Positions 1 through 50,240 of a DNA stretch of 53,783 nt are shown here, piece after piece. A model generated the notes under the pieces. The model saw only the letters and a program-made list of their open reading frames with translations. It ran no database searches and had not been told where the DNA came from. Each line of letters begins with the position of its first letter. Position 1 is the stretch's first letter. Both the position numbers and the translations under genes were made by a program. The stretch lies in contig JAKAOK010000012.1 of the NCBI GenBank assembly GCA_021812245.1, forward strand, positions 1 through 53,783, given 5' to 3'. Source of the stretch: a bacterium. GTDB taxonomy: Bacteria; SZUA-79; Acidulodesulfobacterales; Acidulodesulfobacteraceae.

Positions 1-411
1 AACGTACGAACTTCCTCTTGCGCGCTCCGCTTTCGCTTCGCGCTATCGAGGGTTCGACTCCGTCCCTATTCTGCCTTAACTAAATAATTTATCAAATTCG
101 TTTCATAGCTGGCGGAGAGAGAGGGAGGAACTTTTCTTCGAAAAGTTTTAAAACGTACGAACTTCCTCTTGCGCGCTCCACTTTCGCTTCGCGCTATCGA
201 GGGTTCGACTCCGTCCCTATTCTGCCTTAACTAAATAATTTATCAAATTCGTTTCATAGCTGGCGGAGAGGGAGGGAGGAACTTTTCTTCGAAAAGTTTT
301 AAAACGTACGAACTTCCTCTTGCGCGCTCCGCTTTCGCTTCGCGCTATCGAGGGTTCGACTCCGTCCCTATTCTGCCTTAACTAAATAATTTATCAAATT
401 CGTTTCATAGC
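1..411 (-). repeat. 151-bp tandem repeat array in the tRNA-Ser 3' trailer
   Basis: Units start at 1, 152 and 303, so the period is 151 bp; the third unit runs into the tRNA-Ser gene and the array may continue beyond the window start. Copies are almost identical: two differences seen are at about 180 and 271. Each unit carries the last 18 nt of tRNA-Ser in the tRNA orientation (110-127; 261-278 with one mismatch; the real gene end is 412-429). It also carries a 19-nt stretch, CTATCGAGGGTTCGACTCC on the plus strand (43-61, 194-212, 345-363), which is the reverse complement of what the tRNA gene shows at 426-444. A small AACTTTTC/GAAAAGTT hairpin lies in each unit. No gene is seen here. The arrangement resembles the E. 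coli tyrT/rtT repeats, where each unit also begins with the tRNA 3' end. Confidence 0.9.
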
Positions 412-501
412 TGGCGGAGAGAGAGGGAGTCGAACCCTCGATAGACTTACATCTATACATGATTTCCAATCATGCTCCTTCGGCCTCTCGGACATCTCTC
501 C
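412..501 (-). tRNA. tRNA-Ser (anticodon GGA)
   Basis: A 90-nt minus-strand cloverleaf with a long variable arm, as expected for class II tRNA-Ser. The 7-bp acceptor stem is GGAGAGA/TCTCTCC. The anticodon loop TTGGAAA sits between CATGA and TCATG and gives anticodon GGA, reading UCC/UCU. The T-loop is GGGTTCGACTCC, and CCA is encoded at 414-412. The 3' flank is tandemly repeated, see the array at 1-411. Confidence 0.95.
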
Positions 502-722: not shown

Positions 723-767
723 TTTCTAATTTATATATATATATTTGCAGGGGAAACAAAAACTGTT

Positions 768-1253
768 ATGGAAAACGGAAAAATAATAGAATCTGGTAAT
801 ATAAAGCAAGAATTATCCAAACTCAGGGAAAAATCCAAAAAAATCGTATTTACAAACGGCTGTTTCGATATTATACATGCCGGACATATAAGCTATCTGA
901 ACGAGGCAAAAACTCTCGGGGATATTCTTATAGTAGGATTAAACAGCGATGAATCCGTCAGGCGTTTGAAAGGTGTGGACAGACCGGTAGTAAGCGAACA
1001 GGATAGAGCATACGTCCTCGCAAATCTTAAACCGGTGGATTATGTCGTTATGTTTGACGAAGATACTCCTTATGAACTTATAAAAAAAATTAAGCCTGAT
1101 ATTCTGGTAAAAGGCGCCGACTATGAGGAAAAAAACATAGCGGGGAGCGATATCGTCGAATCTTCGGGAGGCAAAACGGTTTTAATAAATTTTATCGAAG
1201 GAAAATCCACAAGCGGCATAATTAAAAAAATAAAGTCTAAGGCCGATATATAA
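768..1253 (+). CDS. rfaE2: D-glycero-beta-D-manno-heptose 1-phosphate adenylyltransferase (RfaE domain II)
   Basis: This cytoplasmic nucleotidyltransferase transfers AMP to heptose 1-phosphate, making ADP-heptose for LPS inner core. At 161 aa it matches the stand-alone domain II form; in E. coli the domain is fused to the kinase in HldE. The nucleotidyltransferase signature is clear: [12 protein letters not shown] at 29-40 with the HxGH motif at 37-40, then [12 protein letters not shown] and the VKGADY motif near the C-terminal third. An AGGGG Shine-Dalgarno at 749-753 precedes ATG with a rather long 14-nt gap. No kinase-domain partner lies in the window. It is transcribed away from the minus-strand tRNA-Ser and has its own promoter and leader hairpin. 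The gene before the plus-strand diguanylate cyclase is not obviously co-transcribed with it. Confidence 0.92.
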
Positions 1254-1313
1254 TAATATTCAAAAAACTTTCATTTTTTAGAAAATAAGCCGGATAATTT
1301 AATAAAAAATAAT

Positions 1314-1347
1314 AAAAAATAATTCTTGATAATTAAGATTATTTTTT
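1314..1347. terminator. Weak AT-only stem-loop between rfaE2 and the diguanylate cyclase
   Basis: A run of six A, then TAATTCTT, loops back on AAGATTATTTTTT with one bulged T. It gives a T-rich tail on both strands. It could terminate rfaE2 transcription, but it contains only one G-C pair, so support is weak. Confidence 0.3.
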
Positions 1348-1466
1348 GTAGAATTAAAACAATCTATTATTTTTATATAAATTATAATATTAATCAATAT
1401 TTATTGTCATTCCCGAATACAATATAATTTTTAAAAGGAATTTTTTTCAAAAAAGGAGATAAAATA

Positions 1467-2444
1467 TTGGCCAGCGCGAAATTTAACGATTTAGAGCATG
1501 ATTTATTCGAAAATATAGAAATTAAAAATTTACTTAATTCTTTAGACGAAGGAGCATTTGTTATAGATAACGAGGATAATCTGGTTTTTTATAATAACAA
1601 CGCTTCGCTGGCTCTAAAAACAAATCTGGAAGAATTTTTAAATAAAAATATAAGACCCGTTTATTATTTTAAAAATCTATTTAAAGAACAGATAATACCG
1701 GCGCATATCAGGGACCTTGCATCGGGATACAAGATATCTAATATTTATATAATCGACGAACAGAGCCACTATTTCGAAAACGAAAGGATAGAACTTTACA
1801 ACTGCTCGGGCGAGATTAAAGGAACTTTATATCTAGTCAGGGATATTACCAAAGAAATACAGCTCGAAATATCTTTGTCAAACGAAATTAAATTAGACAA
1901 TCTTTCGGGGCTTTATAACTCAAAATCCTTTCATGAAGAAATAGAAAAAGAGATATCGAGGAGCTCGAGATACGGACATGACTTCTCCATTCTTTTTATC
2001 GACATAAATAATTTTAAAGTTTTTAACGACACGCTCGGGCATAAAGCCGGAGACGAAATTATAAAGTTTACGGGAGAATCCCTTAAAAACGCTATCAGAA
2101 AAAACGTGGATTCGGCATACAGATACGGCGGAGACGAATTTACGGCAATACTGCCGAACACCCCAGCAAAAAGGTCAACTATCGTCGCTAATAGAATTTT
2201 ATCTAATTTTCAGAACGGATTTAAAGAAAAATTAAAAGCTATAATCTCCGACGAGGCTTATGATTTAAATTTCGATAATTTTATTTTAAAAGGCGGTAAA
2301 TCCAAAAAAATAGGATTATCGATAGGCATAGCGGGGTATCAGATAGGCAAACCTGTTGACAAACTAATTAAAGAAGCCGATATTGCTATGTATAAGGCAA
2401 AAAGGGGGCAGGATGTTCCTATCTGCATTTACGACGAAGATTAA
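1467..2444 (+). CDS. PAS-GGDEF diguanylate cyclase
   Basis: A predicted cytosolic enzyme that condenses two GTP into cyclic di-GMP. It starts at TTG, chosen because AAGGAGAT (1453-1460) sits at ideal spacing. The N-terminal ~130 residues read as a PAS sensor (LLNSLDEGAFVIDNEDNLVFYN), followed by a GGDEF domain with an intact GGDEF at residues 221-225 and the upstream FIDINNFKVFNDTLGH block. The allosteric I-site position holds KNVD instead of RxxD, so product inhibition may be altered. About 30 extra residues sit between the GGDEF motif and the conserved GLSIGIAGY strand. No membrane segment is seen. It ends 8 bp from the convergent cbiB gene. Confidence 0.88.
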   Translation: MASAKFNDLEHDLFENIEIKNLLNSLDEGAFVIDNEDNLVFYNNNASLALKTNLEEFLNKNIRPVYYFKNLFKEQIIPAHIRDLASGYKISNIYIIDEQSHYFENERIELYNCSGEIKGTLYLVRDITKEIQLEISLSNEIKLDNLSGLYNSKSFHEEIEKEISRSSRYGHDFSILFIDINNFKVFNDTLGHKAGDEIIKFTGESLKNAIRKNVDSAYRYGGDEFTAILPNTPAKRSTIVANRILSNFQNGFKEKLKAIISDEAYDLNFDNFILKGGKSKKIGLSIGIAGYQIGKPVDKLIKEADIAMYKAKRGQDVPICIYDED

Positions 2445-2452
2445 TTTTCGGC

Positions 2453-3595
2453 CTAAAACAGTTTAAGCGATATGACGCAGATTAGTGTCGCGGTATAAAA
2501 AATAATAAGAAGTATAGACGTCAGCTCCATAATTCTGACCGCATCTATAATGCTTTCTTCGCCGGCAGGTTCGTAATTTTCAAATCCGATAACAGGTCTT
2601 TTGCTTTCAACGCCGCCGTAATAATTCACGCCGCCTAACTTTATATTCAGCGCGCCTGCCGCTATAGACTCAAGCTGTCCGCCGTTAGGACTGGGATGGT
2701 TTTTTCTGAATCTGATCCAAGACCTAAATCCATCTATTAGATAATAACGCTTTTTAGATTTATTTAAAGTAAAACTTAAAATAATGACAGATAAAAGCAT
2801 AAAAAAAGAGGTTAATCTGAATGGAATATAGTTTGCGGCATCGTCTAACCGGGCGGAAAACTTCCCAAATTTTTCATATTTTTCGCTTTTGTATCCTACT
2901 AAAGAATCCAGCAGATTTACGCTTTTATAAATAACCGCGGATAAAACGCCGAAAAAAACGATTTCGGCCGTACCATTATAATAATTAATAGCCGATTTTA
3001 ATATCAACCCCGATATTAGTCCCGCCGAGAAGTAGAAAATAACGGAGCCGATTCCGTCACCGGTATTTTCGGAAACGGATTCGACGACGGCCCTTGAAAT
3101 TTCCGATGCGCAAAGATTGCCGCCGTCTCTGCCGGCAAGAGACAAAAGGTCTTTTTGCGCGCCGGCTATATCTTTTGATTTTAACAGCCTGTATATATTC
3201 AGGCTTTCATATCTTAAACCCCCGGCGGAAAGAAAAGACGAAAGAATATATAAAGAAACCGCGTAAAAAAGCAGGGGCGAAATATTAAAAGCGGCAAAAC
3301 TTATCCCTGCGAAAACTATAGATATAGCAAGAATGGTCGAAATATTAAAAAAAAGACCGGATATAAATCCGTTTGAAACGGAATAAAATAACTTTTCTAA
3401 ATATACCGCCGCCCGCGCCATTATGTTTAGAGGATGAAATTTGTATTTTAACGAACCGGCATAAAACTCGATTATAAAAGCTGAAGGAAATAGTAAAAGG
3501 AGAATACAAACAGCGGCCATTTTAATTTTTGAAACTTTCGGGAATAGCGCATGAATCTTCCGCCATAAGTTCCATAAATACATCATTACATACAA
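2453..3595 (-). CDS. cbiB: Adenosylcobinamide-phosphate synthase (CbiB/CobD family)
   Basis: An integral membrane enzyme of late cobalamin assembly that attaches the aminopropanol arm to adenosylcobyric acid. The diagnostic block HPSPNGGQLESIAAGAL with HPSPNGG at 300-306 is present, followed by LGGVNYYGG. The upstream SLVGYKSEKYEKFGKFSARLDDAANYIP segment is also typical, as are several hydrophobic helices, including one at the C-terminus. At 380 aa it is longer than usual (about 320); the extra is N-terminal, and a start at the internal Met before AAVCILLLLFPSAF (about residue 27) is possible. No other cobalamin gene or cobalamin riboswitch is visible next to it, so it is an isolated pathway gene in this window. 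Confidence 0.85.
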   Translation of the reverse strand: MYVMMYLWNLWRKIHALFPKVSKIKMAAVCILLLLFPSAFIIEFYAGSLKYKFHPLNIMARAAVYLEKLFYSVSNGFISGLFFNISTILAISIVFAGISFAAFNISPLLFYAVSLYILSSFLSAGGLRYESLNIYRLLKSKDIAGAQKDLLSLAGRDGGNLCASEISRAVVESVSENTGDGIGSVIFYFSAGLISGLILKSAINYYNGTAEIVFFGVLSAVIYKSVNLLDSLVGYKSEKYEKFGKFSARLDDAANYIPFRLTSFFMLLSVIILSFTLNKSKKRYYLIDGFRSWIRFRKNHPSPNGGQLESIAAGALNIKLGGVNYYGGVESKRPVIGFENYEPAGEESIIDAVRIMELTSILLIIFYTATLICVISLKLF

Positions 3596-3720
3596 TACAA
3601 GGAAAGGGCATCGAGTTTTTCGGGCAATATTTTTCCGACATTAGCAAATCTAATTTATTAAGTTTATATAGTAAGAATATTTTGCAGTAAAATCTTAAAA
3701 AAGTCAAGCGGTTTAGTTTA

Positions 3721-3903
3721 CCCAAATCCCGATTTAGAAAATATTTATAAGTTCTAATACTAAATAACACTGGATTCCCGCTTCCGCGGGAATGACACCC
3801 GTTGGGTGAAATCTTAAATTCCGGAATTGTCATTCCTGCGTAGGCAGGAAACGAAGTACAGCGAAGCTCATCCAGAAAATAAATTTCTAAATCGGGATTT
3901 GGG
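3721..3903. repeat. Inverted-repeat element, family A (183 bp)
   Basis: Perfect 20-bp terminal inverted repeats, CCCAAATCCCGATTTAGAAA at 3721-3740 and its complement at 3884-3903. Inside lies a palindromic module built on GGATTCCCGC and GCGGGAATGAC, facing a degenerate second copy (GTCATTCCTGCGTAGGCAGGAA). No coding capacity, so it is MITE-like. It occupies most of the 3596-3936 gap, in which nothing else is seen. Confidence 0.8.
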
Positions 3904-3936
3904 GGGTATTTTGTTAATAACCTTTTATACCGTCGC

Positions 3937-4464
3937 TTATAATCCTGTTAATCTTACCGAAAAGAAAAGCTCGTTTGCAACATTATCGCCCGCTATGTAT
4001 CCGGCGGGAATAAAATCAATCTCGAAACGTCGAACTATTATAACGGCAATGCCGACTACCGGAAGTAAACCATCGAACCGGTCGGCAATTTTCACCTTAT
4101 CATGATAACCGCTTGCTATGGCGGCAGCCATATCGAATCGAACCTGTCCGATATTGCCTATTTCGTGATATGCCGAGATATATACCGAAGGTACGCCGAA
4201 GCTGTTTTTTAATATATATGTTATGCCGATTTTATCGATAAGCGGAAATGATTTAACTTTAAAATATGCCGTAAGACCGGGGTTAAACTCGTTATAATGC
4301 GAAGTCGGCGTACGCCATGCATGACTTCCGTCGTTATTGAAGTGATAACTGCCAAGCACGACTCCTATGCCGTTGAACGCAAAGTTTGACTCTGCGGCGG
4401 CAGAAACAGGGATAAAATAAAGTATAACGGCAGCCAGAAATAAAACAACAGTCTTTTTAATCAT
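3937..4464 (-). CDS. Exported protein of unknown function, possibly outer membrane
   Basis: A 175-aa protein that I do not recognise. It begins with a clean signal peptide (MIKKTVVLFLAAVILYFIP then VSAAAES, with likely cleavage near residue 24). The mature part is rich in alternating hydrophobic/aromatic segments (LTAYFKVKSF, GVPSVYISAYHEIG, VRFDMAAAIASGYHDKV, FEIDFIPAGYIAG, ELFFSVRLTGL), which would fit a small beta-barrel or a lipid-binding beta-sandwich; this is inference. It stands alone between an inverted-repeat element and a long palindrome. Confidence 0.6.
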   Translation of the reverse strand: MIKKTVVLFLAAVILYFIPVSAAAESNFAFNGIGVVLGSYHFNNDGSHAWRTPTSHYNEFNPGLTAYFKVKSFPLIDKIGITYILKNSFGVPSVYISAYHEIGNIGQVRFDMAAAIASGYHDKVKIADRFDGLLPVVGIAVIIVRRFEIDFIPAGYIAGDNVANELFFSVRLTGL

Positions 4465-4556
4465 TTAATACATATTATATCAAAATATATCGTCAATATT
4501 AAAAAATTAATAAATAATTTCTTAACGAAATTGTCTTATGATACTGGGTGGGGTGG

Positions 4557-4599
4557 GGCAGATGGAGGGGCAGATTTAAAATCTGCCCCTCCATCTGCC
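4557..4599. repeat. 43-bp near-perfect palindrome
   Basis: GGCAGATGGAGGGGCAGATTT (21 nt arm) is followed by one A and then its exact complement, giving a 21-bp stem. It lies about 60 bp downstream of the large lipoprotein gene stop and upstream of the exported protein gene. There is no T-tract on either side, so it is not a standard terminator. It could stabilise an mRNA end or be a small mobile palindrome. The rest of 4465-4657 holds nothing recognisable. Confidence 0.75.
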
Positions 4600-4657
4600 A
4601 TTTTGCATTGGCGTAGTAAATATTATATAGTAGGTACGCCTTTTTACCATTTATATT

Positions 4658-7375
4658 TTACACTATACTCGAAGTATGCCCCGAATAGAAAAATTCGTAT
4701 ATTTGAATATTTGCTGAAGATGCATTTGCGGGAATTATAGCCCCACCGCTATTCATAGCGGTTAAACTGGAAGATGTAATTTGTATTCCGTAAAAACCAA
4801 GATTAGTAGCATTAATATTATATCCATATCCATAAATAGCCTGTAAAGGTTCGAACCTGCATGCATTTTCAACCTCGGAACAAAATACGTTTGCAATATA
4901 ATTTGTATCCGGCGAGAGATTACTTGGAAGAAAAGGAAAAGGAAATTGAACTGTGGACGCTAAATAATTAACATTACTTAACGTCGTCGCATTGCCGACC
5001 TGATTTAACATGCCTGAAGCGCCTGAAAAAAGATAGTCATAGATGGTAGAGGTAGAAACGCTTGATGTATTATTATATGTAATAAAATTACCGTTTTCCC
5101 AATCATCGCCGACGTTATTTGAAAAAGCTGATTTAACAGGATTACTCGATTCAATTAAACCGGCGGTATCTACCGGATAAGCATATAATTGACTCTGATT
5201 TGTTCCCGGATAAAAAGATATAATATGATTAACCGGAAAACCGACTGCATAAAAGCCTCCTTTTCCGCCAGAACTGATATTGCCCACAACGCTCGGAAGC
5301 GAAGTTAACGATCCGTCGTTTCCTATGGTAAACGGAAATAATTGCCAAGTATATGTCGAACCGGTGGACAATAAAGCTGATGCATATAAGGTATTACGGA
5401 CGAAGAATAATGAATCTTCTCCATTATAAACGCTATCTCCGGAAGGAATATACGATGAAGCAGGCTCGCTTTCGGAACATGAAATCGAAGACGAAGTATT
5501 ATTGCATAAATAAATGTCGCCCGCGTTATCGGTATAGTAAAGGTAACTCTGATTTGGAACTACGACATTATTAAAAAGGCTCGTGCTTCCGTTATTTGTG
5601 GTAATGTTGCCGGATGTTTCGTTTAATTGACCGTTAGAGCTATAAGTAAATTTATATATCCCCGCCCCCCCGGTATTATTGCCAAAAGTATAGGCAAAAT
5701 AAAAACCGCCGTTCGGCGCATACGGGATATAACTAACGAGAGGAGCGACTGCGGTTATATTACCGGAAGTGACAGTGCCGGAAGTATATGCGACGGTAGC
5801 GAATTTTATCGGGGATATAATCGGTGCCGAAGAAATCATACCGCTGGAGTTTACAGAATATGCGTTTAATTCGTAAGAGCCTACCGAAGGGTCGTATGTT
5901 TCGAGCACGACATTGCCGTAAAAACTGTTTGTATTGTTATAATTATAAAAATGGTAATTGCCTTGGTAATCAGGGATTTGTATTTCGCCGCTCACGTTTA
6001 AACTGCCGTCGGAGTTTGTAGGTATGAATATAATCGTCGAGCCGTATTTGCTTGTGCTTGGTAAATTAACATATAAAGTATTTAAATTTGTATCTAAAAG
6101 TCCATTTGCAGTAGTCCCGGGGTAACCGCTTGGAAGAGAATTATAATTAGCCGAAGTTAAATATTGACTTAATGAATATTCGGCATCTTTTGTTAAAATT
6201 CCGTTAACGGCGGAATAAACCCATATATTATCGCTGCTATCGATAGCATAAGCGTAAGAGTTATTCTTATTAAACACTAACCCTGACACTCCTTCGCCGG
6301 TTGGAACCGACTGCGGCGAGGCGGTAATGACCCCCGTCGTCGTATCGATAGAATATTCGTTAACGGTATCGCCGGAAGTGCCGGAAGTATTATATTGATA
6401 CATAACCGCCGCGCTTATGCCGGATGTGGATGGAGTAGTCATAGAGGTTGACGAAGGAATAGCAATATTTTGCAAAGGTGCCACAATAGGGGTTTCGGTA
6501 GTGCCTGAATTAAATTCAGGGGAAGAAGAAGTTGAAGCATCCGAAGTTAACTTGCCGGTCGATACACTGCTATTGTTATTATAAACGTTTACTACGACGT
6601 TTAAAATATTACCGCTGGAAGAACCGCCGTCTAAAAGTACTGTTGAACAGTTAGCGGTAGAACTAACGCACTCCGATAAATCGTTTGCAAGCGTGTCTAA
6701 AACGTTGACTAATGATTCTATTTGCGTGGCGTTGTTTGAGGTTGTGGCAGCCGAAGTAACGTTTCCAATAGTATTATTGCCATTATTGTCCGTAAAATGA
6801 ATATTGCCTGCTATCGAGGTAATATTGTTCGCCGCCTCGGTAATAGCGGCAGAAGAATTAGCCGGCGGCGTGGGAGCGCTGCCGCTCGAAACTCCCGTAA
6901 ACTGAGCCTGCTTTAATGCATCCGTGGCGGCAACCGTCGTAAGTTCGTTTACGGGTATAGTTGAATAACTTTTATTTGAAATAATATTCGGGGTTATTAG
7001 ATTCGTCATTACTACGTTAGAACCAACGCTGCTTCCGCTGCCGCCGGTAACCGTTATATAGAGAGGAGTGTTAGAAGAAGGAACCGGAGAAACGGTACAG
7101 GTATATGAACCGGAACCGGAAGATGTTTGAGTGCATTTAATACCTACTGTATTGCCTAACTCATACATCATTACCGTAGCGCCTGTTACTGCAGGACCTC
7201 CTGTAGGAGTAACGGTATAGGTTTGACTGGAAGCCGAACCGCCGCCGGTTGTTCCTCCTCCTCCGCCGCAGCCGGACAACGCAAGAGTTCCGGTAAATAA
7301 GAACATTCCTAAAAGAAGCAAAGAGAAACTAAATTTGGTAAAACGCTTAGAAAATTTTAATTTTTCGTCTTTCAT
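4658..7375 (-). CDS. Large Ser/Asn/Gly-rich lipoprotein with beta-propeller-like repeats
   Basis: A 905-aa predicted lipoprotein. Lipobox LALSGC puts the lipidated cysteine at residue 36, and it is followed by a poly-glycine tether. The first ~300 residues resemble a carboxypeptidase-regulatory-like or Ig-like start (GGPAVTGATVMMYELGN) followed by a Ser/Thr/Asn-rich section. From about residue 320 on, segments such as YSIDTTTGVITASPQS, YVNLPSTSKYGSTIIF and FTIGNDGSLTSLPSV recur, the pattern of YVTN/lactonase-type beta-propellers. Function and ligand are unknown; surface or periplasmic display is likely. An AGAGGGGG Shine-Dalgarno precedes the ATG. The gene is monocistronic with its own promoter at 7417-7446. 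Confidence 0.8.
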   Translation of the reverse strand: MKDEKLKFSKRFTKFSFSLLLLGMFLFTGTLALSGCGGGGGTTGGGSASSQTYTVTPTGGPAVTGATVMMYELGNTVGIKCTQTSSGSGSYTCTVSPVPSSNTPLYITVTGGSGSSVGSNVVMTNLITPNIISNKSYSTIPVNELTTVAATDALKQAQFTGVSSGSAPTPPANSSAAITEAANNITSIAGNIHFTDNNGNNTIGNVTSAATTSNNATQIESLVNVLDTLANDLSECVSSTANCSTVLLDGGSSSGNILNVVVNVYNNNSSVSTGKLTSDASTSSSPEFNSGTTETPIVAPLQNIAIPSSTSMTTPSTSGISAAVMYQYNTSGTSGDTVNEYSIDTTTGVITASPQSVPTGEGVSGLVFNKNNSYAYAIDSSDNIWVYSAVNGILTKDAEYSLSQYLTSANYNSLPSGYPGTTANGLLDTNLNTLYVNLPSTSKYGSTIIFIPTNSDGSLNVSGEIQIPDYQGNYHFYNYNNTNSFYGNVVLETYDPSVGSYELNAYSVNSSGMISSAPIISPIKFATVAYTSGTVTSGNITAVAPLVSYIPYAPNGGFYFAYTFGNNTGGAGIYKFTYSSNGQLNETSGNITTNNGSTSLFNNVVVPNQSYLYYTDNAGDIYLCNNTSSSISCSESEPASSYIPSGDSVYNGEDSLFFVRNTLYASALLSTGSTYTWQLFPFTIGNDGSLTSLPSVVGNISSGGKGGFYAVGFPVNHIISFYPGTNQSQLYAYPVDTAGLIESSNPVKSAFSNNVGDDWENGNFITYNNTSSVSTSTIYDYLFSGASGMLNQVGNATTLSNVNYLASTVQFPFPFLPSNLSPDTNYIANVFCSEVENACRFEPLQAIYGYGYNINATNLGFYGIQITSSSLTAMNSGGAIIPANASSANIQIYEFFYSGHTSSIV

Positions 7376-11950: not shown

Positions 11951-12029
11951 TATTATTTCCCTTATTTATCTATTAATGAGATAACTAATATTATAAGATA
12001 ATAAAATAAAAATCAAGCATATTTTTTTA

Positions 12030-12194
12030 CCTTAATTTTGCAATAGAAAATATTTAAATGTTTCTTTTATATGTAAATACTGGATTCCCGCTTTCGCGGG
12101 AATGACATCTTTTGGGTTAAAACCTCAATCTCTGCATTGTCATTCCCGCGAAAGCGGGAATCCAGAAGATTAAATTTCTATTGCAGGATTAAGG
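12030..12194. repeat. Inverted-repeat element, diverged family (165 bp)
   Basis: Terminal repeats CCTTAATTTTGCAATAGAAA (12030-12049) and TTTCTATTGCAGGATTAAGG (12175-12194) match in 18 of 20 positions. The right terminus also matches family A in 14 of 20 positions, so the two look related. Inside are two facing copies of a palindromic module (12080-12106 and 12138-12165) with cores CCCGCTTTCGCGGG and CCCGCGAAAGCGGG. It ends 2 bp from the stop of the PHP gene and fills the 11951-12196 gap; in RNA it would fold into a long stem that may act as the 3' end. Confidence 0.75.
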
Positions 12195-16604: not shown

Positions 16605-16647
16605 AGCTTTATATTATAATATAAATAAGCGCAATATAAAACTATAC

Positions 16648-16931
16648 CCCAAATCCCGATTTAGAAACTATTTAAAGAAATTCCAAGAACCCGTCATTGC
16701 GAGCATATCTTTGACTGCGTTTATAAAACCAACGGTTTTATGCAGGCAAAGATGGGACGGACGAAGTCCAGCGTAGCTAACTCCAGCGCAGCTAACCAAT
16801 CTCGCTTTAGATTGGTTAGCTGCGCTGGACTTCGTCCGCTGCGCTCGCAATGAAGAAATAGTGCGCCGACAATGACATTATTAAGTGATTCAGGTAATTC
16901 ATATATAAAAATTTCTAAATCGGGATTTGGG
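16648..16931. repeat. Inverted-repeat element, family A with internal module (284 bp)
   Basis: 20-bp terminal repeats at 16648-16667 and 16912-16931, identical to the family consensus. The outer ~100 bp equals the short element at 20228. An internal insert carries CATTGCGAGC ends and a palindrome around GATTGGTTAGCTGCGCTGGA, i.e. a REP-like module. It fills the 16605-16944 gap; no gene is seen in it. Confidence 0.8.
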
Positions 16932-16944
16932 TGATTTTTACCGA

Positions 16945-16973
16945 TTGCATTTTTAATATTTTTTTGGGATAAT
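16945..16973 (+). promoter_or_regulatory. Promoter for tRNA-Ala
   Basis: TTGCAT (16945-16950) and GATAAT (16968-16973) are 17 bp apart, placing the start about 20 nt before the mature tRNA. It begins 13 bp after the end of the inverted-repeat element. Confidence 0.5.
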
Positions 16974-17002
16974 TATTATTGAAGTAAAAATAAAATTAAA
17001 GT

Positions 17003-20187: not shown

Positions 20188-20227
20188 TAAAAATTTACAT
20201 AAAAATTTAACGCCTGCAATTTAACGC

Positions 20228-20326
20228 CCCAAATCCCGATTTAGAAACTATTTAATAAATTCCAATATCCCGTCATTGAGTAATTCAGGTAATTCATATA
20301 TAAAAATTTCTAAATCGGGATTTGGG
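20228..20326. repeat. Inverted-repeat element, family A, minimal form (99 bp)
   Basis: Terminal repeats at 20228-20247 and 20307-20326 match the 20-bp consensus exactly. The interior (AACTATTTAATAAATTCCAA ... TAATTCAGGTAATTCATATA) equals the outer parts of the element at 16648 but lacks its palindromic insert. This is the likely core unit of the family. Confidence 0.8.
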
Positions 20327-20350
20327 TAACATGAAAGTTAATGTTGCACA

Positions 20351-35967: not shown

Positions 35968-36004
35968 CTTTTAACCCTCCGCTTTATCGCTATTATTAAA
36001 AGTT

Positions 36005-36182
36005 CGGAATTATGCACTTGACAAAGCAATATTTGGGTATTTTCATAATAACCTCGAGATTGCTTCGCTATCGCTCGCAATGACCGTATATTGTCATTGC
36101 GAGCGATAGCGGACGGACGAAGTCCAGCGCAGCTAACTCCAGCTCAGCTAACCAATCCCGCTTTGTCAAGTGCATAATTCCG
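36005..36182. repeat. Inverted-repeat element, family B with internal module (178 bp)
   Basis: Termini CGGAATTATGCACTTGACAA (36005) and its complement ending at 36182. Interior holds ATTGCGAGCGATAGCG in two facing copies plus an AGTCCAGCGCAGCTAAC stretch also found in the family A element at 16648. Located between the VirB10-like and MoxR genes; nothing else is seen in that gap. Confidence 0.8.
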
Positions 36183-36193
36183 TTAAAGTTTTA

Positions 36194-40464: not shown

Positions 40465-40484
40465 CCCAAATCCAGATTTAGAAA
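40465..40484. repeat. Solo family A terminus next to the virB5 ribosome-binding site
   Basis: CCCAAATCCAGATTTAGAAA differs by one base from the family A terminus, and the following TTTATAAGTTCT matches the inside of the element at 3721. The other end is missing. It lies in the 46-bp gap between virB4 and virB5, directly upstream of the Shine-Dalgarno. Confidence 0.65.
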
Positions 40485-40495
40485 ATTTATAAGTT

Positions 40496-43072
40496 CTATT
40501 TATTCCGTTCTATTCCGTAAGGTCCGTTCGGATATTTTTCAGCTAATATATAAAGCCGTTCTTTTAAAGACTTATCCGGATAAAGACGTTCTATAAGCCT
40601 TTCTATTTCTTCGTCTTCGGACGATTTACAGCAGAGCCAGTATTCAAAGGGATCGGGTGAATTTCTTATTACCGCCGAATCTTTTCCGAATTTTAAAAAG
40701 TATTCGGCATAATGCCCTTTAACCACTTTAAGGTTTTTTACTATATCCATCTCTTTTCCATTCAGGCCGCATAGTCTTAAATCATCCGTCGAAACGCCGC
40801 CGTCAAGCTGGCAGAATATTTTTACCGACGAATTTTCTATAATGCTTTTGCCGATGTTGCCCGCCTTTAAAAGGTCGCCAGGTTCCTGAGTTATGCTCCA
40901 TACCATAGAACCCCACTTTGCCGAAGTCTTATAAAGGTGCATTATCAGCTCCGAAATCTTCGGGTCGTTCATAAATTCCCAGCATTCGTCGTAAAAGAAA
41001 AAAACTTTTGCCGATTTATCGTACATTTTTTTAAAAGATATATTTTTTATAATAGCAAATACTACTTTTTGAAGGTCTTCATGCCCTTTTAACTTTTGAA
41101 GGTCGAATATTACTATTTTATTATCTATATTTATGCCGTTTTTTCTGTTAATCAGCATTCCGTAAGGGGAAGAAATATCCGTCCATTGAAATAAATTTTT
41201 TCCCATTTCCATAGCTCTTTTTTTATCCGAAATATCCCTTGCCTCTCCGTAATCAAACAAAATATTGTTAATATCGGATATTACCGGCATATCGTCCATA
41301 TCGGCTATTCCGTCGTATGCCGCCTGAATAGCCCGTGTTATGATAGTCTTATCGTTCGGCGATAAATTTTTTTCCGGTTCAACCATTAATCCAATTATTC
41401 CCGTCAGGAAAACCATAATATCCGGGTCAAACGTCTCCTCGCCGTTCACTCCCTTAACGGCGTATTTCTTCGGAGGAAACGGATTTATACAATAGCTTCC
41501 GTCCAAATCTATCTCTATATAATCGCCTTTGAATATTTTGCAGAATTTTTTATAAGTTCCTCCTATATCGACCCCTATAATATGATAATTATCTCCCGAT
41601 ATATAAAAATTGCTTAGAAATCCGTTCAGCATGAATCCTTTTCCGCTTCTCGTCTTTCCGAAGACTATTCCGTGCTTTGACGGGAGGCGGTTGTTGTAAA
41701 GGTCTAATTTTACGGCTTCTCCCCTGTCGTTTATCAACGGAACGGCGCAATTTTCGGTTCCGGCGAAACCCTCGTTCAACGGAAAAAATGCCGCCGCCGA
41801 AGAAGAAATAGAGGTTTTAAAGCGCCTGTTAAAACGGGACTGGCCGGGAAGAAAAGATAGAAAAAGGTTGTGGTGCTCCATATTGTCTATTATGCCTTCC
41901 ATTCCGTTATAGTTTTTAAACGATTCAAGAAGCTTTACGGCTCTCAAACCAAGTTCGTCTAAATTTTTAGATTTAATTCTTGCGCATAAAGAAAACTCTA
42001 CTACTTTCTTTTGGAGTTTAGAAACAGATTTTAAAAACTCATCCAACTGCTCCGTAATATTTGCGCCCTTATAATCCGTATATCCCCCGCCTGCCGCTTC
42101 GGTCAGGCTTGCCTTTATATTTCTGTCCGTTTGTATTTTTTCTATCGTTTTTTCCTGTTCGGGAATATTAAAGGCGACGGAAATATCGTAAGGAAAAAAA
42201 TCTTCCGCAGAACCGCCGACATTTAAAACGGATGTTATGCCGAAAGAATCGACGCGCGACGGAAGCCTGTGCATATTTATAAATTTATAATAGTATCCGT
42301 CGAGATAGAAAAAATCCTTTTTAACTTCCGCACAGGAATATATGAGCTGGCTCCTGAAAGTAGAACCGTCGAGCATATTTTCCCACCGCGGCGCTTTAAC
42401 GCATAGAGACCTGCAGGGATTCAACTCGGCATAAAAATAATCGATAAGCTCCTGATTTCCCATTCTCTTCAAGCCTATATCGAGTCTTGAAGATATAAAG
42501 CTCAGATTATTTTCGATATTTATTAATTTTTTTTCTATAATCTTTTTGTCCGCAAGCGCATTATTTCTCGAAACGGAATTAACGGCTCCGGCAAAATTCA
42601 ATTTAAACAGTCCGGCGGCGTAATCCGAAATTTTAGGCAGAATATTTATTCCTTCCTCTTTTGCATGTAAATTCAAGCCGTTAAAAGAACAAAACAGATA
42701 TATCTTAATATTTTTAATGGGTTTTGCTTTTAAATGTTTAATTTTATTTTCTTTAATATATTCAAAGTCTTCGGGGGGCGTCGAAGACGTTTCGTAATTG
42801 GAAATAAAAGGGTCGTTTTTGTCTTCTATTTTATAAATCCATTGTAGGTTTATATTTTCGTCCAGAAGATTCAGCATAAGGTCGTTTACGTATGCCGCAT
42901 CGTTAATAATTTCGTTTCCGGCAAGATAATAATCGAAACCCCTGACTGAGAAGCCTATGGTAAACGACCCGTCTATCCCTGCGGCTATGCCGTCGTTTAT
43001 GGACAAAAGGTTGACGTAATGATTTAAAGAACTGTCCGCATCTATTTTTTTTAAAACCGAATTTAAAAACAT
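40496..43072 (-). CDS. VirB4/TrbE-like T4SS ATPase
   Basis: 858 aa. N-terminal VirB4 domain, then a motor domain with Walker A GKTRSGKGF, IIGVDIGGTYKKFCKIF and DLDGSYCINPFPPKK, Walker B FFFYDECWEFM, and SMVWSITQEPGDLLKAGNIG near the C-terminus. VirB4 energises pilus biogenesis and substrate transfer at the inner membrane. Normal length for the family. Confidence 0.92.
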   Translation of the reverse strand: MFLNSVLKKIDADSSLNHYVNLLSINDGIAAGIDGSFTIGFSVRGFDYYLAGNEIINDAAYVNDLMLNLLDENINLQWIYKIEDKNDPFISNYETSSTPPEDFEYIKENKIKHLKAKPIKNIKIYLFCSFNGLNLHAKEEGINILPKISDYAAGLFKLNFAGAVNSVSRNNALADKKIIEKKLINIENNLSFISSRLDIGLKRMGNQELIDYFYAELNPCRSLCVKAPRWENMLDGSTFRSQLIYSCAEVKKDFFYLDGYYYKFINMHRLPSRVDSFGITSVLNVGGSAEDFFPYDISVAFNIPEQEKTIEKIQTDRNIKASLTEAAGGGYTDYKGANITEQLDEFLKSVSKLQKKVVEFSLCARIKSKNLDELGLRAVKLLESFKNYNGMEGIIDNMEHHNLFLSFLPGQSRFNRRFKTSISSSAAAFFPLNEGFAGTENCAVPLINDRGEAVKLDLYNNRLPSKHGIVFGKTRSGKGFMLNGFLSNFYISGDNYHIIGVDIGGTYKKFCKIFKGDYIEIDLDGSYCINPFPPKKYAVKGVNGEETFDPDIMVFLTGIIGLMVEPEKNLSPNDKTIITRAIQAAYDGIADMDDMPVISDINNILFDYGEARDISDKKRAMEMGKNLFQWTDISSPYGMLINRKNGINIDNKIVIFDLQKLKGHEDLQKVVFAIIKNISFKKMYDKSAKVFFFYDECWEFMNDPKISELIMHLYKTSAKWGSMVWSITQEPGDLLKAGNIGKSIIENSSVKIFCQLDGGVSTDDLRLCGLNGKEMDIVKNLKVVKGHYAEYFLKFGKDSAVIRNSPDPFEYWLCCKSSEDEEIERLIERLYPDKSLKERLYILAEKYPNGPYGIERNK

Positions 43073-44123: not shown

Positions 44124-44288
44124 CCCAAATCTCGATTTAGAAATTTTTATATATGAATTACTTAATAATGTCATTGCGAGCGCAGCGAAGCAATCTCGTT
44201 TTAGATTGCTTCGCTGCGCTCGCAATGACTGGTTCTCGCAATGACGGGATATTGGAATTTATTAAAATTTTCTAAATCGGGATTTGGG
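44124..44288. repeat. Inverted-repeat element, family A with GCGAGC module (165 bp)
   Basis: Ends at 44124-44143 (one mismatch) and 44269-44288 (consensus). The interior has the facing modules CATTGCGAGCGCAGCGAAGC and GCTTCGCTGCGCTCGCAATG. Orientation is opposite to the elements at 16648 and 20228. It fills the far side of the 43914-44303 gap; the near side (43914-44123) should hold the T4SS promoter, but I see no convincing -35/-10 there, only a short TCCGGT/ACCGGA stem. Confidence 0.8.
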
Positions 44289-44303
44289 ATAAATTGGATA
44301 CCT

Positions 44304-50078: not shown

Positions 50079-50095
50079 CTATTTAATTATTTAAT

Positions 50096-50237
50096 CGGAA
50101 TTATGCACTTAACAAAGCAATGCTTGATATTTGTCATGCAATAACAGCGAGATTGCTTCGCTATCGCTCGCAATGACTGCATATTGTCATTGCGAGCGAT
50201 AGCGAAGCAATCTCGCTTTGTCAAGTGCATAATTCCG
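50096..50237. repeat. Inverted-repeat element, family B with internal module (142 bp)
   Basis: Ends CGGAATTATGCACTTAACAA (50096) and the complement of CGGAATTATGCACTTGACAA (ending 50237). Interior shows facing ATTGCTTCGCTATCGCTCGC and GCGAGCGATAGCGAAGCAAT modules. It ends 4 bp before the fliI stop codon, so it could serve as the transcript end of fliI. Confidence 0.8.
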
Positions 50238-50240
50238 TTA

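Follow-up and report, generated by a model that had tools for sequence, protein, structure and literature searches.

Tandem hairpin units behind tRNA genes of an Acidulodesulfobacteraceae bacterium resemble the Escherichia coli rtT trailer and may be small palindromic DNA elements

Introduction

The closest described counterpart of the locus reported here is RtT (rttR, RF00391), encoded in the tyrTV operon of E. coli, and in the literature surveyed rtT has been described from enteric bacteria alone. Excerpts of published work give covariation support for the helices of RtT RNA (PMC8250186, PMC7657543), describe a 175-bp variable-number tandem repeat in Salmonella Paratyphi A, a case of variable rtT copy number (PMC2658671), and report rtT-like sequences of enteric bacteria also upstream of protein genes, counting them among the BIMEs (PMC2965389). 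Confinement of such sequences to tRNA ends may therefore not hold everywhere.

BIMEs and REPs are palindromic repeats of bacteria, and the Rickettsia RPE and similar families are comparable. Elements that encode tyrosine integrases use tRNA and tmRNA genes from the T-loop to the CCA end, the classic integrase target, and leave a duplicated 3′ fragment downstream. In the literature searched, outside which most of the original rtT work fell, we found no description of units like those below beyond rtT.

We analysed a stretch of 53,783 nt, referred to as the window, which is an entire contig (G000:C49:1-53783) of a 1.78-Mb draft genome from the family Acidulodesulfobacteraceae. At its start lies a tandem array whose layout is common to that of E. 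coli rtT, yet the two have no common Rfam family. Using this array as a starting point, we describe the anatomy of its units, their distribution within and outside the family, and the explanations that may account for them.

Results

A tandem array forms the trailer of a tRNA-Ser gene

A tRNA-Ser gene with anticodon GGA and an encoded CCA end occupies positions 412-501 of the minus strand (ARAGORN; 53.3 bits for the Rfam tRNA model), and the array beyond it, directed at the contig start, is thus its 3′ trailer. The 151-bp period and the copies of the tRNA 3′ end that the preliminary description had noted were both recovered: TRF gave a period of 151, 2.8 copies and 98% matches over positions 1-429, and matches to the terminal 18 nt of the tRNA stand at 261-278 (unit 1, 17/18) and 110-127 (unit 2, 18/18). 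Two units are complete at 151 bp (unit 1, 261-411; unit 2, 110-260) and a third (1-109) is cut by the contig end, all on the minus strand. The array therefore holds at least 2.7 copies and runs off the contig start, a lower bound because the window is the whole contig. There are 2 mismatches in 151 positions between copies 1 and 2, and copies 1 and 3 are identical over their first 109 nt; with a self-identity of 98.6% over 278 bp, chance is excluded as the source of the self-match.

We built a covariance model, R1, from 26 units, among them both complete window units, which it matches at 261-383 (102.4 bits) and 110-232 (99.6 bits); the truncated unit gives a partial match, scored at 29.5 bits in one scan and 49.6 bits in another. 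Rfam yielded no family for the unit, RF00391 was absent among its matches up to E=5 in positions 1-1000, and no terminator-like site was found within the array, the single one lying at 692-722. A small basic protein of the Tpr type, as known from E. coli, was not supported. The open reading frames listed for the array reach at most 33 aa, a 29-aa minus-strand frame overlapping it is listed for one copy only, and 151 is not a multiple of 3; given this period and the short frames, we rejected a protein-coding reading.

As 151 is also a common Illumina read length, the period raises the concern that the array is an assembly artefact, the more so as it stops at a contig end and several other contigs end inside arrays. 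However, a single copy of the window unit is present in a second genome (G009) at 98% identity, units at other loci measure 102-194 nt, and arrays with other periods occur, also inside long contigs such as G019:C3. These observations speak against a pure artefact, which we consider hardly credible, and the window copy number is given as assembled.

The window also contains further short dispersed repeats in both orientations, at 3689-3850, 12008-12160, 16645-16994, 20227-20327, 35992-36185, 40465-40498, 44124-44293 and 50086-50240.

Each unit combines inverted and direct parts of the tRNA with two hairpins

The unit had been described as the tRNA 3′ end plus its 3′ flank. Both parts are present, but this composition is incomplete, since each unit also carries an inverted T-arm copy and two hairpins. 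On the tRNA strand, the order is a spacer (about 30-50 nt), the inverted T-arm, hairpin C, a T-arm remnant, hairpin D and the last 18 nt of the tRNA. In unit 1, on the minus strand, the inverted T-arm copy (GGAGTCGAACCCTCGATAG, compared with CTATCGAGGGTTCGACTCC in the tRNA) lies at 345-363, is seen in the sequence and as an opposite-strand self-match (345-444), and recurs 151 positions lower. Folding predicts hairpin C (GCGC...GCGC) at 324-345, with stems of different sequence in other units, and hairpin D (AACTTTTC-GAA-GAAAAGTT) at 280-298, at the position that corresponds to the T-loop in the copied tRNA end. Between them, at 309-319, the direct T-arm remnant GAGGAAGTTCG is predicted to pair with the inverted T-arm (stem B); across units this remnant has the form GAGG..GTTCG.

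The same anatomy occurs behind four tRNA-Ser isoacceptors, and in several relatives the inverted copy also covers the acceptor 3′ strand (AGAGAGGG). Stems C and D vary between units as complete pairs. A simple search of 55 distinct matches, of which a few are weakly scoring tRNAs, returned GCGC/GCGC, GGGC/GCCC, GCCC/GGGC and GCCAC/GTGGC for stem C, and AGCGTCC, AACTTTTC, AGCGCCC and others for stem D, leaving 8 matches without a perfect stem for C and 7 for D. When 26 units were aligned, 83.1% of cells paired, compared with 77.6% in shuffles, and both sides of a pair had changed in 53 cells, compared with 20.9 in shuffles; standard pair types showed no excess (20 vs 20.1), and stem D was poorly placed in the alignment behind these counts.

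Minimum-energy folding of a tRNA together with its trailer (four full and four half units) paired the inverted copy with the tRNA's own T-arm in 8/8 cases; one example precursor reached −90.6 kcal/mol, against −32.1 for the tRNA and −46.2 for the unit folded apart. As genuine tRNAs are the first to fold and tertiary contacts hold them in shape, this predicted pairing may matter only for slow or late folding.

Two variants of the anatomy were also observed. In L004, L036 and L051, a nested hairpin (around GCAGGCGTTTACAAAAGC..GCTTTTGT) sits within hairpin D, like a second small repeat that has been inserted. Five tRNA-Ser loci (L013, L015, L017, L054 and L089) have an inverted T-arm and no downstream copy of the tRNA end, and strong folding onto the tRNA is predicted for the first four of these.

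The E. coli rtT trailer has a comparable architecture

The K-12 tyrV trailer consists of three 178-nt units. Its first unit contains GGGGAAGGATGAGAAGCTTCGA, which is identical at 19/22 positions to the inverted 3′ half of tRNA-Tyr (1/1000 shuffles was as good), and a weaker T-arm remnant, equalled by 42/1000 shuffles. The remnant is followed by hairpins and then by the tRNA end, and the annotated end of rttR RNA coincides exactly with this 3′-end copy. The analogy to tyrT/rtT drawn in the preliminary description thus holds for the architecture: in both systems, tandem units lie in the trailer on the tRNA strand and end in the tRNA 3′ end from the T-loop, an inverted tRNA 3′ half is able to close a stem, a T-arm remnant and hairpins are present, and copy number varies. 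In the window, units stand in tandem behind a tRNA and hold that tRNA's 3′ end along with an inverted 3′ half, a part that is absent from some units elsewhere. The systems differ in the tRNA and the unit length (tRNA-Tyr and 178 nt in E. coli, tRNA-Ser and 151 nt in the window), in the lack of a Tpr-like open reading frame in the window array and in the multiple tRNA genes per genome that bear units here. At the gathering threshold, RF00391 matched the E. coli locus (L126) alone among 17 loci scanned.

This likeness raises the question of whether the units are kept for a functional trailer RNA, either as structured, CCA-ended small RNAs of the rtT type or with the inverted T-arm as a folding competitor that would gate tRNA maturation. 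The same-strand placement of the units, the excess of pairs changed on both sides, the coincidence of the rttR end with the 3′-end copy, the published covariation for the RtT helices and the pairing of the inverted copy in every folded precursor are all consistent with it. The strand comparisons are less so. G-U pairs showed no sense bias (12 vs 14 for hairpin C and 9 vs 16 for hairpin D, 7 weak loci being left out); the sense strand folded better for C in 32/37 cases and the antisense strand for D in 33/40; and over 55 units the sense fold was the more stable in 26. Pair types did not exceed shuffles, 9 of 30 family genomes have no R1 match, and relatives differ in copy number. The absence of a sense-strand G-U bias fits palindromes at the DNA level, and because the strand test did not favour a sense RNA, we prefer DNA-level palindromes to a selected RNA. 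A selected trailer RNA, which we regard as doubtful, is compatible with mobile elements, so the odds given to the readings need not sum to one.

Units are common in the family and vary in number

R1 matched 21 of 30 family genomes; in 356 genomes from outside, scanned under stricter filters, it had no match. Every one of the 16 home-genus genomes has a match; none was found in genus g2 (7 genomes), genus g3 (1 genome) or one g5 genome, and the negative genera are two of six (g2 and g3). In g2 and g3, 3′-end copies were found at 0/9 and 0/4 testable tRNAs, respectively. The places read either follow a tRNA-Ser gene (anticodon GGA, GCT, TGA or CGA) directly on its 3′ side and share its orientation, or sit at contig edges; L085 and the weak L109 are exceptions. 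In loci inspected by eye, a tatA-like gene follows closely behind the GGA gene.

Related genomes differ in copy number, as the comparison suggested in the preliminary description brought out: among 67 tRNA-Ser loci, 27 have no unit, 27 have one, 10 have two, 2 have three and 1 has four. These counts come from a simple string rule that undercounts, giving zero for L009, L090, L091 and L104 despite their R1 matches; at L053 the CGA count is inflated by a neighbouring tRNA, and L045 has masked bases and a second tRNA. Tandem arrays with periods of 138, 139, 143, 149 and 150 bp were also found, and in two family loci read by eye the unit repeats 22 nt (L032) or 33 nt (L040) of flank. Draft contigs end in or beside arrays in G014:C41, G014:C49, G024:C41, G018:C7, G012:C31 and G010:C67, so copy numbers in drafts are probably underestimated.

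Several tRNA genes of the home genome carry units

Behind 5 of 28 testable tRNAs of the home genome, we found a copy of the 3′ end (≥15/18). Exact 18-nt copies occur not only at tRNA-Ser but also behind tRNA-Asn (142-nt unit) and tRNA-Gln (105-nt unit, which repeats 15 nt of flank); an inverted T-arm was not recognisable in these two units. Over 49 nt, the GCT unit and the second TGA unit have spacers that are 87.8% identical (maximum in 200 shuffles, 64.8%), and the spacers of the two TGA units are only 46.8% identical to each other. From the GCT/TGA likeness, this type of unit seems to have moved between tRNA genes. The inverted copy fits its host tRNA best, ties allowed, in 2/5 home units, and the TGA unit matches the T-arm of one other tRNA better than its own.

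Placement from the T-loop to CCA, together with a direct repeat that starts in the tRNA and ends downstream, is also what integrative elements would leave behind had they used the tRNA 3′ end as attB, and the preliminary description had offered stacked attachment-site remnants as an alternative. We weighed this against matches to PF00589, which occur in 30 of 30 family genomes (285 in all); the stronger part was listed and compared by eye with the tRNA-Ser places. Among these listed matches, every one lies more than 10 kb from every tRNA-Ser array, the nearest being at about 10.1 kb (G005:C3) and about 16 kb (G002:C53). The far side of the window array is beyond the contig end. Moreover, the units as read by eye contain no genes and often include inverted copies, and their ends are tailored to each host tRNA. 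A 6-kb home segment between two tRNA-Ser(TGA) units is bounded by a 75-nt direct repeat, as an integrated element might be, but it has inverted ends, and no recombinase was found among 5 of 6 listed open reading frames searched with Pfam. With no PF00589 neighbours among the matches listed, we rejected the integrase reading and regard attachment-site remnants as quite unlikely.

That segment (L125, G000:C22:172500-180500, about 759-6838) deserves description in its own right. It encodes an N6/N4 methyltransferase, an unassigned 300-aa open reading frame, a D12 methyltransferase and an AAA_13 protein like PADLOC PDC-S06, and its inverted ends are 47 nt long and 83% identical. From its predicted genes, it looks like restriction-modification or defence cargo without a recombinase, the Pfam search having covered five of the six listed frames, one of those five outside the segment. 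Arrays of this kind may be landing sites for larger elements.

Similar units occur behind tRNA and tmRNA genes of other lineages

A looser pattern, consisting of a tRNA end followed by an inverted T-loop, matched 17 of 30 family genomes and 10 of 356 outside. The preliminary description had suggested that a second such locus in an unrelated lineage would point to a recurrent mechanism, and 3′-end copies in G324, its kin and G061 support this. In G324, a copy of at least 15/18 lies downstream of 12 of 34 testable tRNAs (Ser, Asp, Glu, Gly, Arg, Thr, Leu, Gln and Lys), and in 9/12 units no other tRNA is a better match to the inverted copy than the host, ties being allowed. The pattern was found in 12 of 42 further relatives of G324 that had not been searched before; within 15 fetched loci, 7/16 testable genes carry copies and the host ranks first in 6/7, fractions that are not prevalences since the loci were chosen by pattern. 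In G061, copies (≥15/18) occur at 6/29 genes, the hairpin type is mostly different, and the host is the best match to the inverted copy, ties included, in 1/6.

Among the pattern-matched genomes outside the family, a 3′-end copy accompanies a matched gene in G324, G061 and G228, in G096 the copy belongs to a nearby tRNA-Asn and not to the matched tmRNA, and G127, G190 and G233 have none. Across three other loci, one of four testable tRNAs has a copy, at 16/18 in G037, a pattern-matched genome of another lineage in which downstream copies follow both tRNA-Ser(CGA) (16/18) and tRNA-Arg(TCT) (15/18; L034 and L175). As a control, 0/30 testable tRNAs in eight genomes had a 3′-end copy; this control, which used the 30 best-scoring tRNA places alone, is soft, as all eight genomes were negative for the looser pattern beforehand.

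Several candidates were discarded. The match in G198 is a convergent tRNA pair, and that in G111 has no tRNA in its locus. A whole-unit pattern matched 28 of 386 genomes (19 in the family), and its 9 matches outside, with no tRNA in their loci, were attributed to chance, as were L140 and L141, from other phyla in a scan of 20 stretches of named genomes, with no tRNA near the match. R1 itself scored weakly on foreign units (30.3 bits at the G061 tmRNA locus and 30.2 in L316), partly because of the shared tRNA-Ser end, and a strong match was absent from most of the 21 loci scanned for foreign units.

Among 18 units from genomes outside the family, 9 match the tRNA end without a difference over 18-21 nt, starting at the T-loop, and in the other 9 the identity is shorter or interrupted. 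Past the tRNA end, the repeat extends into the flank by 11-53 nt in 5 units and by 0-6 nt in 13, under a boundary rule that yielded no copy at 6 further genes and picked a decoy at the G324 tRNA-Glu, where a better copy exists. Such boundaries look like those of a tandem duplication, or of a target duplication that starts at a fixed point and ends at a variable one.

The 111-nt inner sequence of the G061 tmRNA unit has 7 genome-wide matches of 34 to 111 nt, all of which (7/7) follow a tRNA or tmRNA gene on its own strand, no more than 185 nt beyond its 3′ end. No other observation points as strongly to a dispersed element tied to tRNA ends, and this one also bears on an origin by mutation alone, in which template switching during replication, with no mobile element, made the direct-inverted-direct order and tandem duplication followed. 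Two switches could yield that order of tRNA end, inverted copy and tRNA end, and compact cases such as L317 hold little else. However, inner sequences are common to different tRNA and tmRNA genes, which in G061 argues against template switching as the only process; it could start a unit, and the common inner sequences would stay unexplained by it. We therefore consider a purely mutational origin unlikely.

Discussion

The array behind tRNA-Ser(GGA) is real and the finding is more general than was claimed at first: units of one type recur behind different tRNA genes. Our main reading, to which we assign a probability of roughly 0.55, is that the array is a series of small palindromic elements of DNA that reside at the ends of tRNA genes, spread between genes and multiply by means of their 3′-end copies. 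A unit would enter behind or within the T-loop and duplicate the tRNA end, leaving the upstream tRNA whole. Units could then multiply or vanish by recombination or slippage between tRNA-end copies, and pass from one tRNA gene to another. The inverted copy may fold onto the unit's own 3′-end copy and so prevent the extra tRNA ends from becoming rivals of the genuine end. Transcription of the trailer, should it occur, would yield one rtT-like, CCA-ended RNA per unit, probably as a by-product.

Several observations weigh against mobile elements. No enzyme that might move the units, whether a transposase, an integrase or another kind, was identified in this analysis; the inverted copy is found in some units and not in others, and the proportion of units in which it fits the host best drops from G324 and its kin to the home genome and G061; and the length of repeated flank varies between 0 and 53 nt, unlike an ordinary target-site duplication.

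Compared with known systems, the units are like BIME and REP sequences in being short, hairpin-rich, non-coding and repeated. They differ from these in carrying tRNA copies fitted to the host and in their position, since the R1 units of the family and those of G061 sit on tRNA or tmRNA 3′ ends, bar the two exceptions given above. With integrative elements they have in common the use of the segment from T-loop to CCA and the duplication of a 3′ fragment downstream, whereas they are tandem and small, at roughly 90-190 bp, have ends fitted to each host and, in most types, an inverted copy, and no integrase was seen near tRNA-Ser arrays among the PF00589 matches listed.

A bolder reading is that these units belong to a widespread, as yet unnamed class of mobile DNA hairpins that occupy bacterial tRNA and tmRNA genes at their 3′ ends, with both ends of the hairpin element built from the host gene, one inverted and one direct, and with E. 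coli rtT as a domesticated or relic member. Several lineages speak for it and the control is small and soft; we hold it tentatively, at somewhat less than even odds.

If the architecture does recur in unrelated lineages, tRNA gene ends would host a general kind of palindromic element. This could bear on the evolution of tRNA trailers and on tRNA ends as hot spots of recombination, and it could also bear on how an element gains ends that match each new host gene.
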